IMG/VR virus record: IMGVR_UViG_3300046507_000181
Span: 1 to 39,772 of that record
DNA length: 39,772 bases
Reading direction: 5' to 3' (one strand)
From: a virus
The first letter of the stretch is position 1, and each line of letters starts with the position of its first letter. Of this stretch, positions 7,533 to 25,295 are shown one piece after another. The translations under genes were made by a program, and so were the position numbers. The notes below the pieces were generated by a model. That model searched no databases. It was given only the letters and a program-made list of their open reading frames with translations, and was not told where the DNA came from.

Positions 7533-8036
7533 TTAGGCGCGGTGGACCAGCCGCGTGAAAGCCGCTAGTACCTCGTCGTTGGGCGAAAACCACTCGCCCT
7601 CAAGTTGGTGGTCCATGAGCTCGTGGTGCAGCTCGCGCTCAAGGTCGAATCCGCCGGGAAACGTGCCGAGTACGTTCAGTTCGACAGGTGAGTGCGTCCG
7701 GAGCGTTCGCAGTCGTTTGTCGAAGTTCCGGCTCGCTCCGATCTTGATTGGACCGTCGTCGCCCTGCTGAACGAAGTAGACGAGCGCTGGTGTCGCCTTC
7801 CGGCGCATGTGGTCGGACACGTACTGGAGTGACTTCTGTTCCTCCAGAAACAGGCGGAGGAAGTTCGGATGCGCCAGGGTCGTGAGCCGCCACTGGTAGT
7901 AGCCGGCCTCGCCAGCCCATGTGTCGGTCATCGCCTCGACGTCGGGAATCATGTCGTTGATGTCCATGTAGCGAAGAACGGAGTCGAACCGAAAGTCGCC
8001 GCCGCCGGCAGGGACATACCCGCCGGACGTACGCAC
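7533..8036 (-). CDS. GIY-YIG / T5orf172-type nuclease-fold protein
   Basis: 167 aa from GTG 8036 (AGGAAGG SD, 9 nt), preferred over ATG 8066, which directly follows an in-frame stop and lies inside the upstream small gene. The C-terminal 90 residues contain VYFVQQGDDGPIKIGASRN, RLRTLRTHSP and a late ELHHELMDHQLEGEWF, the T5orf172/MUG113 branch of the GIY-YIG superfamily. The N-terminal part is helical and unrecognised. Could be a homing-type or recombination nuclease; whether it is active is unknown. Confidence 0.78.
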   Translation of the reverse strand: MRTSGGYVPAGGGDFRFDSVLRYMDINDMIPDVEAMTDTWAGEAGYYQWRLTTLAHPNFLRLFLEEQKSLQYVSDHMRRKATPALVYFVQQGDDGPIKIGASRNFDKRLRTLRTHSPVELNVLGTFPGGFDLERELHHELMDHQLEGEWFSPNDEVLAAFTRLVHRA

Positions 8037-8040
8037 CTGA

Positions 8041-8178
8041 TCACGCCTTCCTAAGAGGCACACCATTTAGCTGCTTGTAAGGGACCCATCCGCTAAACGG
8101 CTTGGGACTGCATCCCGCGTATCTCGCAACCAAGTGCTTGTCTGTGTTCTCGAATTGCCCCGTACGTGGAGGCCTCAC
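8041..8178 (-). CDS. possible 45-aa small protein upstream of the GIY-YIG gene
   Basis: An open frame bounded by an in-frame TGA, starting GTG 8178 (or the adjacent GTG 8181) and ending TGA four bases before the GTG of the GIY-YIG gene. The product starts MRPPRTGQFENTDKHLVARY and ends QLNGVPLRKA; its composition is protein-like. SD is only moderate (AGGCGG, about 9 nt). The alternative is untranslated leader. Confidence 0.45.
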   Translation of the reverse strand: MRPPRTGQFENTDKHLVARYAGCSPKPFSGWVPYKQLNGVPLRKA

Positions 8179-8280: not shown

Positions 8281-8484
8281 CTAGGCAGCCGGCCTTTCAG
8301 ACGGGAGTGATGCGAGCCAGCGCTCGCCCTCCGTCTTGGAGATGATCGGCTTGCGGCCCGCCTTGGTCGGGTAGGCCGGGATCAGATCACCGGAATCGAT
8401 CGCCTTGCGGATCGTGTCGACGCTGAGGTCGACCGCAGTGGCGAAGTTGGGGATCGAGTAAGCAAGCTTCTCGAGAGTGTTCAT
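8281..8484 (-). CDS. excisionase-like / MerR-type HTH protein (67 aa)
   Basis: Opens MNTLEKLAYSIPNFATAVDL followed by SVDTIRKAIDSGDLIPAYP and KPIISKTEGERWLASLP, the helix-turn-helix plus wing plan of small excisionases and MerR-like DNA-binding proteins. It overlaps the Cro-like gene by 4 bp (ATGA), so both come from the operator-controlled promoter. Likely a recombination directionality factor or a second early regulator; I cannot tell which. Confidence 0.75.
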   Translation of the reverse strand: MNTLEKLAYSIPNFATAVDLSVDTIRKAIDSGDLIPAYPTKAGRKPIISKTEGERWLASLPSERPAA

Positions 8485-8690
8485 GCTGCGGCTCCTGCGA
8501 ACAGGTCTTCGGGGCGCAAACGAAGAACGCCGCTGACGCGCACGATCTCGGGCATCGTGAGCTCTCCCGTGTGGAGGTGCTCAACGAGGCTCGCGACGGG
8601 CACGCCAGCGGCGTTCGCAACGGTTGCGGTGTCGGTGCCGGATGCGACGATCGCGGTGGCGATCGTCTCGGCCGTCCTCCTGAGGTTCAT
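8481..8690 (-). CDS. Cro-like HTH regulator (69 aa)
   Basis: Start ATG 8690 is 7 nt after a TAGGGT -10 box with no SD, so the mRNA is probably leaderless. The sequence MNLRRTAETIATAIVASGTD, ATVANAAGVPVASLVEHLHTG, MPEIVRVSGVLRLRP fits an XRE-type HTH. It is divergent from the repressor and first in the leftward operon, the classical position of cro. The palindromic operator at 8707-8718 lies inside its promoter. Confidence 0.75.
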   Translation of the reverse strand: MNLRRTAETIATAIVASGTDTATVANAAGVPVASLVEHLHTGELTMPEIVRVSGVLRLRPEDLFAGAAA

Positions 8691-8726
8691 GTTTGCCACC
8701 CTACGCGTCAGATCTGACCTGCGCAA
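8691..8726 (-). promoter_or_regulatory. leftward early promoter with palindromic operator in the spacer
   Basis: On the minus strand a -35 TTGCGC (8726-8721), a 17-bp spacer and a -10 TAGGGT (8703-8698) precede ATG 8690 by 7 nt. The spacer holds the perfect 12-bp palindrome GTCAGATCTGAC at 8707-8718. Repressor bound there would cover both promoter elements. Confidence 0.65.
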
Positions 8727-8744
8727 GCATGCACGGCACTTTTT

Positions 8745-8782
8745 TTGTCATATCTGGTAGTTCCGTGCGCTAGTCTCGTGAC
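8745..8782 (+). promoter_or_regulatory. putative repressor promoter and degenerate operator
   Basis: TAGTCT at 8771-8776 ends 6 nt before GTG 8783, with no SD, as in leaderless transcripts. The best -35 is TTGTCA at 8745-8750, though its 20-bp spacer is long. GTCATATCTGGT at 8747-8758 matches the operator palindrome at 9 of 12 positions and would allow autoregulation. Confidence 0.5.
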
Positions 8783-9190
8783 GTGTCAGATGCAGCAGAC
8801 TTCATCACGCGCGCCCTCGGGGCTGTGCTCACCGGTGCCTACATGAAGAAGGGGCTGACCCGGGATGTGCTCGCTGAGCGCACTGGGATCAGTAAGTCAA
8901 GTCTGGGGCGCTACCTCAACGGCAAGCTCGACCTATCAGCACCGAACTTCCAGAAGATCGTGGACGCGATCGGTGACACGCGACGCACGGCTGCTGAGCT
9001 CTACGCAGAGGCGCTGGCAGATGCGGAAGACATGGCTCGAGAAGCCGAGCGAGTGTCAGGGGTCCGTGGGCACAATCCAGTCATCCCGCTGCGGAACCGC
9101 TCCGCCGACGACCTGGAAACGTCCGGAGACGCACGGGCGGCTATGTCCCGTGATCCTGAGTCGGACGAGCCGGAGGACCAGGCACCGTAG
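8783..9190 (+). CDS. immunity repressor (XRE family HTH)
   Basis: 135 aa from GTG 8783. Residues 25-64 (LTRDVLAERTGISKSSLGRY then LSAPNFQKIVDAIG) are an XRE HTH. The C-terminal half is acidic and apparently unstructured, without an autoproteolytic LexA-type domain, so inactivation likely depends on the neighbouring ImmA-like protease. Divergent from the Cro-like gene and upstream of ImmA, as in ImmR/ImmA systems. It should bind the GTCAGATCTGAC sites. Confidence 0.82.
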   Translation: MSDAADFITRALGAVLTGAYMKKGLTRDVLAERTGISKSSLGRYLNGKLDLSAPNFQKIVDAIGDTRRTAAELYAEALADAEDMAREAERVSGVRGHNPVIPLRNRSADDLETSGDARAAMSRDPESDEPEDQAP

Positions 9191-9199
9191 GGAGAGGCA

Positions 9200-9595
9200 A
9201 TGGCTGGGCAGTACGACCCGTATGCGCACGCAGACCAGCTTGGTATCGACGTAATCCACCGGAAGCTGCGAACCGCGAACGGCTTCTGGTATCCGGATCA
9301 CAACCTCATCGTGATCCGGCAGGGCATGCGAACCGTGCACGACAGGTCCGCACTCGCCCACGAGCTCGCGCATGCGCACCTCGGCCACCGCGACTCATCC
9401 CCGAAGCACGAAAAGACGGCCGACCGCTTAGCGGCCGGCCGTCTCATCAACGCGGGTGAAGCTCTTGCTGTGTGTCAGTGGACTGATGACCCGGCGAAGA
9501 TCGCCGCCGAGCTAGGGGTCAGTCTCCGCCTGTGGCGCGTCTGGTTCGACACCTACGGTCAGGAGCTTGGACATCTTGGTGAGGGCATCGCGTAG
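9200..9595 (+). CDS. ImmA/IrrE-type metallopeptidase
   Basis: 131 aa with the zinc-peptidase motif HELAH at residues 54-58 (catalytic Glu55) and a downstream helix EKTADRLAAGRLI that can supply the third ligand. ATG 9200 has GGGAGAGG upstream, 9 bp after the repressor stop. By analogy with ICEBs1 ImmA it would cleave the repressor to induce the prophage. Its last 84 bp overlap the convergent integrase gene. Confidence 0.88.
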   Translation: MAGQYDPYAHADQLGIDVIHRKLRTANGFWYPDHNLIVIRQGMRTVHDRSALAHELAHAHLGHRDSSPKHEKTADRLAAGRLINAGEALAVCQWTDDPAKIAAELGVSLRLWRVWFDTYGQELGHLGEGIA

Positions 9596-10837
9596 TGCCC
9601 GCTGGTTCCCACGGGACCGGTAGCGCCGGGACATTCCGATGGTGGAGTGGCCGACGATCTCGGTGATGACTGCTTCGGGGACTTCGGCTTCGTAGAGCAG
9701 GTCGACCGTGGTGTGGCGGGCGTCGTGCAGTCGGGCATCGTTCACGCCCGCCCGTGAGAGAAGCGCGTGCCATGCCCGGTTGTCGACGCCTGGGTCAATG
9801 GGGGAGCCGTCGATCGGGAGCATCTCGCCTTGCGGTGTTCGCTTCTGTTCCGCGGTCCACACGAGCCCATGCGGGTTGGGTTCGGTAGCGGCAACTGCGA
9901 TGCGGCGTTCGATGATCTCCCGCAGTGGGTTGACGAGGGGGATCACGCGCCACCCTGCTGCCGACTTCGGGCGTGACAGGAACAGGCCCCCCGTGAGGTG
10001 CCGATGCTCCCAATCCACAGGGGCGTCGAGGAACCGTTGCGGGCAGTCAGCGCCGCGCTTCCACGGACACGTCGGCTGTCGCGGGTTGCTCTTGTTGCAG
10101 CCGTGCGCCCACGTGAGCCGTTGCAGCTGCCAGGAGAGGTCGAGGTGGTCCGACACTCGATCAATCTCGAGTCCGAGCACTTCCCCCTGGCGAGCGCCGG
10201 TCAGCAATGCTGTCGCCCACCGCGACCCCATGCGGTCACCGGGGCGTGCCGACTCCTGCAGGATGCGTACACCAGCATCAAGGTCGAGTACGGCGAGGTT
10301 GGTCTGCGCTCGTCGTGGTGCATCAACCAGGGTGGTGACGTTACGGGTGACGCGTCCTTCTCGTTCGGCATCGCGGAGTGCGGTGCCGAGGATGCGGTGC
10401 GCTTGTAGCGCGGTGGTCGATGAGAGTCCCTTGCCCGTGATTGCGTCGTGCATGCGACGCACGTGGAGCGGCTCAAGCTTGTCGAGCCGAGTGGTCCCGA
10501 TTGCGGGGGCGATGTGATTGTCGATGATGCCGCGTTGAGTGGCGATGGTCTTGGGTCGTACGCGCTTGCTGTGGATATGGTCGAACCAGTGCCGCAGCCA
10601 TGATTCGAGTGTCTGCGATGCGGTGGGTAGGTCGCCTACCTTCGCGAGATCTTTTTGCAGTTCGCGGAGCTTCGTCAGTGCGACGCGCTTGTCCTTGGAT
10701 CGGACGAACTTGCGCCGGCGTTCCCCGTTGCGGGGAGGGAGCTCTACCGTGGCCTGCCAGAACTTCAGCGGCTTGCTGGTGTCGGCAGGCACACGGAAGA
10801 GTGCGCCTTCGCCTTTACCTCGCGTGATGCGTGCCAT
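9512..10837 (-). CDS. int: tyrosine integrase
   Basis: 441 aa from ATG 10837 (AAGGAG, 5 nt). N-terminal arm-binding part, SAM-like core-binding domain (about 72-165), then the catalytic domain with Arg216 (LLTGARQGEVLGLE), Lys291, the HDAR box His371/Arg374, His397 (IVGHSTIG) and nucleophile Tyr406. A Cys-rich insert at 247-265 (Cys247, Cys257, Cys265) may bind zinc. It catalyses integration between attP (11361-11408) and a host Arg-tRNA(ACG) gene. The gene ends inside the 3' end of the convergent ImmA gene. Confidence 0.95.
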   Translation of the reverse strand: MARITRGKGEGALFRVPADTSKPLKFWQATVELPPRNGERRRKFVRSKDKRVALTKLRELQKDLAKVGDLPTASQTLESWLRHWFDHIHSKRVRPKTIATQRGIIDNHIAPAIGTTRLDKLEPLHVRRMHDAITGKGLSSTTALQAHRILGTALRDAEREGRVTRNVTTLVDAPRRAQTNLAVLDLDAGVRILQESARPGDRMGSRWATALLTGARQGEVLGLEIDRVSDHLDLSWQLQRLTWAHGCNKSNPRQPTCPWKRGADCPQRFLDAPVDWEHRHLTGGLFLSRPKSAAGWRVIPLVNPLREIIERRIAVAATEPNPHGLVWTAEQKRTPQGEMLPIDGSPIDPGVDNRAWHALLSRAGVNDARLHDARHTTVDLLYEAEVPEAVITEIVGHSTIGMSRRYRSRGNQRALRDALTKMSKLLTVGVEPDAPQAETDP

Positions 10838-10940
10838 CACTTCTCCTTCTCCTGTCGTGCGCGGCCCATTGGCCGCCGAGCACTCCGATGTGGGTGAAGG
10901 CGACCGGCCTCCTGCGTCGGTGGTTGCGTGTAGCGTCCAC
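10815..10940 (-). CDS. possible small basic protein upstream of int (41 aa)
   Basis: GTG 10940 is preceded by a strong AGGAGG SD at 7 nt. The frame overlaps the int start by 23 bp. Composition is very Arg/His-rich (MDATRNHRRRRPVAFTHIG start), suitable for nucleic-acid binding. The SD is the main evidence; the peptide resembles nothing I know. Confidence 0.42.
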   Translation of the reverse strand: MDATRNHRRRRPVAFTHIGVLGGQWAAHDRRRRSDGTHHAR

Positions 10941-11017: not shown

Positions 11018-11224
11018 TTATTGGTGCTTAGCGAGTTCGTTCAGGATGAGGCTTCGGGCTGCCTCACGAACGCTGCCACTGGCGGGCAGCTCGTCGTAGA
11101 CGAACGACGCGATCTCGACCAGTGCGTCTCGCGTACCTGCATTCCAGCCAGACACGAAAGCCTCTCGCGGCGAACCGATGCCAGCCGCGCCCATCCCGTT
11201 CCAGGTCTCTTCTGCTGCGCTCAT
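11018..11224 (-). CDS. small hypothetical protein (68 aa)
   Basis: ATG 11224 with AAGGAG 6 nt upstream. Begins MSAAEETWNGMGAAGIGSPR and is otherwise helical (EAFVSGWNAGTRDALVEIAS). Its start overlaps the stop of the 26-aa leaderless peptide by one base. Being transcribed from the second operator-controlled promoter, it may belong to the lysogeny/excision switch. Function unknown. Confidence 0.65.
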   Translation of the reverse strand: MSAAEETWNGMGAAGIGSPREAFVSGWNAGTRDALVEIASFVYDELPASGSVREAARSLILNELAKHQ

Positions 11225-11304
11225 CACGCTCTCCTTCTGCGGTGCATCCGTGTATCCGTTCGGTGTATCCATATGCCCCAGCCTGTGTCGGCTTGTGCTG
11301 GCAT
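11224..11304 (-). CDS. possible leaderless 26-aa leader peptide
   Basis: ATG 11304 lies 7 nt after the TAGGCT -10 box, exactly as for the Cro-like gene. The frame MPAQADTGWGIWIHRTDTRM plus an Arg-rich tail ends TGA, overlapping ATG 11224 of the next gene. It could couple leaderless initiation to the downstream gene or sense ribosome progress. It also spans the TGTATCC repeats. Confidence 0.4.
   Translation of the reverse strand: MPAQADTGWGIWIHRTDTRMHRRRRA
11243..11270. repeat. TG(C/T)ATCC repeats, possible integrase arm sites (int side)
   Basis: TGCATCCG (11243), TGTATCCG (11251) and TGTATCC (11264) are short direct repeats on the int side of the att core. Related TGCATCC (11426) and GTATCCC (11439) lie just beyond the core. 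Arm-type binding sites of tyrosine integrases usually flank the core in this manner. Confidence 0.45.
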
Positions 11305-11342
11305 GTTTGAGAGCCTAGCAGCCAGATCTGACCTGTGTCCAA
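11305..11342 (-). promoter_or_regulatory. second operator-controlled promoter
   Basis: On the minus strand a -10 TAGGCT (11317-11312) and -35 TTGGAC (11342-11337, spacer 19) or TGGACA (spacer 18) frame GCCAGATCTGAC (11321-11332), one mismatch from the 8707-8718 palindrome. The shared stretch CAGGTCAGATCTG and its placement match the Cro promoter. Confidence 0.6.
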
Positions 11343-11360: not shown

Positions 11361-11408
11361 TCTGACTACGGATCAGAAGGTTGGGGGTTCGAGTCCCTTC
11401 GAGCGCAC
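11361..11408 (+). other. attP: attP core: 3' half of a tRNA-Arg(ACG) gene
   Basis: TCTGA/TCAGA stem with loop CTACGGA (anticodon ACG at 11368-11370), a T-arm with GGTTCGAGTCC, and acceptor end CGAGCGC. The 5' half (acceptor, D arm) is absent. This is the usual attP core that restores the host tRNA on integration, 0.5 kb from int. Confidence 0.85.
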
Positions 11409-11425
11409 AGGAAGTACGGATCGGG

Positions 11426-11445
11426 TGCATCCCGAGAAGTATCCC
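11426..11445. repeat. TGCATCC / GTATCCC repeats, possible arm sites (distal side)
   Basis: TGCATCC at 11426-11432 and GTATCCC at 11439-11445 repeat the motif found at 11243-11270 on the other side of the core. Candidate P'-arm sites. Confidence 0.35.
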
Positions 11446-24304: not shown

Positions 24305-25295
24305 TCGCGCTCGATCACCTGCACCGGGAAGACGACGCCGTTCAGGTTCGCGCCGTCGCCGGCAGCCTTCTTGTAAGCCTCAGCCGCGTCATCATGTGCA
24401 CGCTGAGCCCAGTCAATGACCGGCGCGTACACCGTGTTGCCCTCAGGCGTCTTCACCGGCACACCAGCGCGATACACGCGCTTGCCGTCGCGATTCGAGG
24501 GATCCGAGTCCGGAGACATCGCCTCATCCATCGGCTGACCATGCGGTCCAATCAGCGCCTTGAACGCGCGCACGCCCAGCACCAACGACACCTGATCCGG
24601 CGTCCACTCCGACTCACGCTCAACCCGCGTGTACAGCAGGTTGCCGTCATCGTCGAACACGGGGACATGCCGTTCCTCAGGCATCCACCCACGCAGCACT
24701 CGAGGGGCGACCCCAAGGTCGACCGCTAAGAGGACTTCTTCGCGGAGGCGAGGGCTACGGCGCGCAGCGCTTTTCCCACCTCCACCGCCCGAGCAGAGTC
24801 ACCCTCGTTGAGCGCGAAGATCGCATCAGCGATACGACGGTGGTCGCCACCCGAGATCACACCAAACAGGTCTTCCCAATCGTCGCCAGTGAGCTCGCGC
24901 GTCTCGTCGCCCTCGACGATGACGCCACTGTCGATCGCAGCATGACGCGTCACAGCGTTCCAGTCGTACTGGAAGTACATGTCCGCCAGCACGCCAGCAC
25001 GAGGCGGGTTGTTCAACGTCAGATCCGACCAGCCCTCACCGATCAGCCGTGTGAACTTCAGCTCGACCAGCGAATCCGCGAACTCAGCACGGATGTCATC
25101 AGCCTGCTTCAGCAGTTTCGCCAGCGGAGACGACTTCGCCAGTCGACCATCATCCGGCTTCTGCTTCTCAGCCTCGATCAGCTCTTCAACCTCAGACAGC
25201 CGCGCCGCAACATCATCGTCAAGCGCAACCGTTACCGTCTTAAACGGACGCGGCTTAGCCTTCGCCGCAGCAAGCTTCTCGTTGAACGAACCCAT
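24301..25295 (-). CDS. tail assembly chaperone, -1 frameshift fusion (about 331 aa)
   Basis: At 24777-24771 the minus strand reads G GGA AAA, a classical -1 slippery heptamer, in the frame of the upstream chaperone gene. Slipping back one base continues through SAARRSPRLREEVLLAVDLG into the second frame, which has no good start of its own and runs to 24301. Join: 25295-24771, then 24771-24301. The second part contains GWMPEERHVPVFDDDGNLLY. The fusion and the short form are needed in a set ratio to fold the tape measure and recruit tube subunits. Confidence 0.82.
24726..25295 (-). CDS. tail assembly chaperone, short form (189 aa)
   Basis: The unshifted product from ATG 25295 (SD-like GGGTGAAG). 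Helical; includes TVTVALDDDVAARLSEVEEL and FTRLIGEGWSDLTLNNPPRA, similar to actinophage G-type chaperones that follow the tail-tube gene. It ends 14 residues after the slippery site. Confidence 0.85.
   Translation of the reverse strand: MGSFNEKLAAAKAKPRPFKTVTVALDDDVAARLSEVEELIEAEKQKPDDGRLAKSSPLAKLLKQADDIRAEFADSLVELKFTRLIGEGWSDLTLNNPPRAGVLADMYFQYDWNAVTRHAAIDSGVIVEGDETRELTGDDWEDLFGVISGGDHRRIADAIFALNEGDSARAVEVGKALRAVALASAKKSS

Follow-up and report, generated by a model that had tools for sequence, protein, structure and literature searches.

A predicted lysis-lysogeny switch with one operator sequence at the cro, repressor and integrase promoters of a probable temperate phage genome

The control locus

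Can a single operator sequence, recurring at the promoters of a cro-like gene, a repressor gene and an integrase region, allow one protein to control early transcription, integration and its own synthesis? This question is raised by a locus in IMGVR_UViG_3300046507_000181, a viral contig of 39,772 bases that was analysed over its whole length and is referred to here as the window. As 125 bases are identical at both ends, the window was read as a complete circular genome, most likely that of a temperate phage. The locus is probably its lysis-lysogeny control region, and the host is an actinobacterium, probably one of the Microbacteriaceae. The genes are:

8281 to 8484, minus strand: excisionase-like gene (xis), immediately 3' of cro (PHROG 66 excisionase, E=2.4e-5)
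8481 to 8690, minus strand: cro-like gene, 69 aa, start leaderless by spacing
8783 to 9190, plus strand: XRE-family repressor (rep), 135 aa (Pfam HTH_3, E=8e-9)
9200 to 9595, plus strand: ImmA/IrrE-type metallopeptidase, Peptidase_M78 (Pfam PF06114, E=7e-9)
9512 to 10840, minus strand: tyrosine integrase (int; Pfam and PHROG 1)
11018 to 11224, minus strand: 68-aa ORF in the interval between Pint and int, with a homologue in the related locus L005
11224 to 11304, minus strand: leaderless leader ORF of 26 codons, coding doubtful; its TGA overlaps the ATG of the 68-aa ORF

AlphaFold models the Cro-like protein as an XRE-type domain of five helices (pLDDT 89.7); the closest folds in the PDB are XRE regulators, including 434 Cro, with E-values of 0.04 and above, and the protein matches PHROG 4583 (E=0.0025). 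The repressor model has a helix-turn-helix (HTH) domain, a long helix and a tail of low confidence. The immA gene starts 9 nt after the repressor gene, a pairing kept in relatives, and encodes an HELAH (HExxH) motif in which H54, E55 and H58 are invariant across relatives. No Pfam family was matched by the 68-aa ORF (11018-11224), and the leader ORF start codon is absent in the related loci L009 and L020.

Two further observations concern the layout. The int and immA genes run towards each other and share 84 bp (9512-9595), with overlaps of 41-84 bp in most relatives; a transcript from Pint would enter immA and rep antisense and could add a second level of mutual interference. On the strand of the excisionase-like gene and downstream of it, positions 7533-8066 encode a protein that has a MUG113/T5orf172 (GIY-YIG type) domain and is possibly a homing-type nuclease.

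Operators and promoters

The operator and promoter features, and those of the attachment site, are (operators have no strand assigned):

8698 to 8726, minus strand: Pcro; TTGCGC (8726-8721), 17 nt, TAGGGT (8703-8698), 7 nt, ATG at 8690
8707 to 8718: O-cro, GTCAGATCTGAC, an exact palindrome within the 17-nt spacer of Pcro, which runs leftward
8747 to 8758: O-rep, GTCATATCTGGT, weaker, with 3 mismatches, over the repressor -35 region
8771 to 8782, plus strand: Prep -10, TAGTCT (8771-8776), with a 6-nt gap to GTG at 8783; leaderless by spacing
11242 to 11270, plus strand: GTG(C/T)ATCC three times, candidate arm sites for the integrase; one more copy, the fourth, is at 11425-11432
11312 to 11341, minus strand: Pint; TGGACA (11341-11336), 18 nt, TAGGCT (11317-11312), 7 nt, ATG at 11304
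11321 to 11332: O-int, GCCAGATCTGAC, with 1 mismatch, within the spacer of Pint, at a distance of 33 bp from the attP core
11366 to 11408, plus strand: attP core, the 3' part of a tRNA gene (probably tRNA-Arg), in a stretch identical in L007, L008 and L017

A preliminary description of this DNA had placed a palindrome in the 17-bp spacer of the Cro promoter and a second copy in the spacer of a promoter on the int side. Both were recovered, GTCAGATCTGAC exactly at 8707-8718, with the promoter hexamers located, and GCCAGATCTGAC at 11321-11332, where the spacer is 18 nt. The features said to be shared by the two promoters, namely a common sequence, a TAGG(G/C)T -10 and a 7-nt gap to ATG, all hold for Pcro and Pint; CAGGTCAGATCTG is common to them, and CAGATCTGAC occurs at just two places genome-wide, O-cro and O-int. 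Pcro and Pint had been described as two leaderless promoters, and both have the expected spacing (-10 hexamer 6-7 nt 5' of the start codon), but the count has to be raised to three, as Prep is also leaderless by spacing. Downstream of Pint the order is leader ORF, 68-aa ORF, int.

The attP core also matches Curtobacterium phage Barebow. No tRNA gene was found when the window was searched for them, which is expected where the attP carries just the 3' part. Genome-wide there are five copies of GTG(C/T)ATCC, four of which flank attP, and these candidate arm repeats are also found in L005, L008 and L017, with 13-bp-spaced pairs in L005 and L008.

Comparison with chance

Palindromicity alone is at chance level; sequence plus position exceeds chance. 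The genome contains 9 perfect 12-bp palindromes (9.7 expected) and 18 matches with up to 3 mismatches (22 in shuffles). Neither is enriched and, being at chance level, both were left out of the evidence. The promoter context is rarer. TTG-N20-22-TANNNT-N6-7-RTG, searched on both strands of the whole genome, has 3 matches, 2 of which are the O-cro and O-int promoters, and only 0.34 % of ATG/GTG triplets have TANNNT 6-7 nt 5' of them. A weight matrix, trained on sites chosen by eye at homologous promoters in four relatives and excluding those of the window, placed O-cro at rank 1, O-int at rank 2 and O-rep at rank 8 genome-wide. The matrix matches at 25018, 35995, 33678, 924 and 30665 are at no recognised promoter and were taken as chance. 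When inverted repeats common to the cro-rep and int upstream regions were sought, these sites came top in the window and in L005.

The weaker third site proposed at the repressor -35 (8747-8758) was thus found at rank 8 only. It is not significant alone within the window, and the case for it is made by position and conservation. Under a region-by-region null (approximately 0.01 for an 8/8 site, 0.05 for a 7/8 site) single sites are weak evidence, and it is the joint pattern that carries the case.

Comparison with related loci

Related loci were gathered with an ImmA query from Curtobacterium genomes and viral contigs. The repressor protein as query gave no match among viral contigs or phage records, and no further viral contig matched the exact promoter patterns. 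Thirteen loci were aligned, including the near-identical pairs L003/L007, L004/L008 and L017/L018, so that there are fewer than 13 independent cases; L019 and the distant L010-L016 and L028-L033 had no clear shared site or fell outside the comparison.

The Pcro layout (a TTG-type -35, a spacer with an inverted repeat, TANNNT, 6-7 nt and a start codon) is present in all 13 loci, and the repressor -10 is 6-8 nt from the start in 13/13 relatives. The motif search in relatives that had been suggested as a check was thus positive for a spacer inverted repeat at every cro promoter, while the operator sequence shifts between branches. In the window, L007, L008 and L017 all three promoters (cro, repressor and int) have type I, GTCA-N4-TGAC, as do the cro and rep promoters of L018, which groups with L017. 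Type II, CTCC-N4-GGAG, is found at Pcro in L009, L020, L021 and L023-L027, and also adjoins attP in L009 and L020, the two loci containing that region; the repressor promoter in this branch matches weakly, at 5-6 of 8 positions, and alone does not reach significance. The cro and int regions tend to score high for their own operator type alone. L005 is mixed: its int side has GTCAGAAGTGAC, the window's type, and its cro promoter has CTCAGAAGTGAG, CTCA-N4-TGAG, with GTCA-N4-TGAC absent at both the cro and the repressor promoter.

Sites homologous to O-int were found in L005, L007, L008 and L017, and at the position of O-rep L007, L008 and L017 have GTCAGATGTGGC or GTCAGATTTGGC. The int-side site is centred in the promoter spacer in four phages; in L005, L009 and L020 it adjoins the outer edge of the -35 and is not within the spacer. 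In L009 and L020 that spacer has a further inverted repeat (GCACC-ATC-GGGTGC; CCCC-ATC-GGGG) beside CTCC-N4-GGAG.

A second operator-like site covers the cro start in L007 (4515-4526), L008 (4512-4523) and L017 (4495-4506), and one is near the cro start in L009 and L020; the window at its cro start is a poor match to the relatives' second site. In Arthrobacter phage Kumotta (L035, 3200-3360), the cro-to-repressor interval has several AGTACT palindromes, and by eye none was seen near its attP. Kumotta possibly represents a third specificity within this layout.

The repressor recognition helices also differ, being SKSSLGR, SLSTIQR or SLATVQR with type I operators vs VESTLNR or PYGTLNR with type II. 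The design is kept while the operator sequence changes across relatives; a single DNA-binding protein shared by the promoters is the simplest cause of the joint change, and the XRE repressor is the best candidate. However, operator type largely tracks phylogeny, and relatedness and co-evolution are not fully separable. The repressors also share an acidic C-terminal tail (9145-9187 in the window; consensus near A-x-x-D-P-E-x-D-T-D-E) with an N-V-T-P-L-R motif upstream of it. Tail and motif are about as conserved as the HTH, though the DNA-binding regions differ, and the tail could possibly be a recognition signal for ImmA.

Proposed switch and alternatives

The sites, the promoters, their conservation and their co-variation were read from the sequence and its comparison with relatives, and from these we infer dimer binding, repression, autoregulation, cleavage by ImmA and leaderless transcripts. 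The repressor (8783-9190) would most likely bind GTCA-N4-TGAC as a dimer. With O-cro and O-int between -35 and -10, bound repressor would exclude RNA polymerase, and the cro-xis-early operon and the leader-int operon would be silenced together in the prophage. At the weaker O-rep, which overlaps its own -35, the repressor would limit its own synthesis. On some signal ImmA probably removes the repressor, and Xis and Int would be released together, permitting prophage exit; this relief step draws on the conserved rep-immA pair with its HExxH motif and on the ICEBs1 precedent. We consider it very likely that the locus works in this way overall. That the same repressor site serves the early, int-region and own promoters, as initially proposed, is well supported by the matrix ranks, the conservation and the joint change of specificity.

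Among the alternatives, the sites could be primarily for the Cro-like protein, lowering early and int transcription late, with the repressor secondary or acting elsewhere. The confident XRE-type fold of this protein would suit such a role, cro/rep regions classically share operators, and the Cro sequences too differ between the two operator groups. However, the L005 Cro is the least like that of the window (24 %), yet the int-side GTCAGAAGTGAC is of the window's type, whereas the Cros of the CTCC group are closer (30-43 %) yet occur with another operator. Operator type therefore tracks the repressor recognition helix better than it tracks Cro, a comparison based on one divergent phage, and we regard a primary role for Cro as quite improbable. 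Less probable still is that the int-side palindrome is a recombination element, bound by Xis or an accessory factor within attP, its likeness to the cro site being incidental or secondary. O-int does have candidate arm sites to one side of it and the attP core to the other, and Apl of phage 186, excisionase and regulator in one, binds both att and pR-pL (PMC7498355). Against this, the palindrome is centred in the promoter spacer in four phages and its sequence matches the cro-promoter site, and O-int is a single dyad, unlike the direct repeats that PMC7498355 gives for excisionases.

A chance 12-bp palindrome beside promoter-like hexamers in a GC-rich genome would account for the palindrome count and the loose matches, both of which are at chance level, but is scarcely credible given how the sites rank genome-wide, how rare the promoter pattern is, and the conservation in 13 loci, which contradicts chance. 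Control by the XRE repressor remains the preferred reading. An extension of it seems unlikely, namely that repressor at O-int, flanked by candidate arm sites and the attP core, also acts on recombination itself and blocks it by occupying the att site; if true, in the prophage a single protein would silence the recombination complex as well as int transcription.

Relationship to known systems

The repressor of mycobacteriophage BPs (gp33; operators O_R and O_Rep) acts via a palindrome between the -35 and -10 of PR (PMC4557955). The window likewise has a 12-bp palindrome between the -35 and -10 of the early promoter, the only respect in which it resembles O_R. BPs is also like the window in having another site at the repressor promoter and copies at other promoters, and in its small repressor divergent from cro (PMC4557955). 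However, the 12-bp palindrome makes up one of the two half sites in a full BPs operator, and a reporter test in BPs saw no Prep control (PMC4557955). In BPs rep and int form one operon with attP inside rep (PMC4557955), whereas in the window int has its own operator-bearing promoter, immA follows rep, and the attP core (11366-11408) is outside the repressor gene (8783-9190). Nor do the sites resemble the many dispersed asymmetric stoperators of cluster A, since the window has two strong palindromic sites, both at promoters.

ICEBs1 has the same pairing of an XRE repressor, ImmR, with an ImmA metallopeptidase that cuts it at F95-M96, and ImmR acts at its own and the excision promoters (PMC8960796), as predicted for the circuit in the window. 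However, int, immR and immA are co-transcribed from PimmR in ICEBs1 (PMC8960796), whereas in the window int is on the opposite strand to repressor and immA, convergent with and overlapping immA, and has its own promoter. An M78 peptidase adjoining int, as in the window, has been reported in Curtobacterium prophages and already likened to the ICEBs1 peptidase that cleaves the immunity repressor; the main text of that paper contains neither operators nor ImmA by name (PMC9862828). The lambda CI-Cro switch has in common with the predicted one the divergent repressor and cro, common operators, autoregulation and lysogenic shut-off of Int and Xis, but its operators are tripartite and int is reached via PL and PI (PMC4557955 and general background), in contrast to a single strong site per promoter in the window.

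A spacer palindrome at an early promoter (BPs) and repressor-ImmA pairs (ICEBs1) are thus already known. Our literature search found no description of the sites reported here, of operators in Microbacteriaceae phages, of an int promoter under an operator within attP, or of a specificity switch over several promoters. What the sequences would add is an operator-controlled int promoter inside attP, starts that appear leaderless by spacing and a putative natural specificity series.

Implications

If the proposed switch is correct, it is compact and testable, with one operator coupling lysis, integration and autoregulation. The relatives would form a natural repressor-operator series with at least two specificities, which would allow superinfection immunity groups to be predicted from sequence, and the repressor-operator pairs could be put to use as orthogonal repressor parts. 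For target recognition by ImmA, the acidic tail conserved among the repressors suggests a specific hypothesis.
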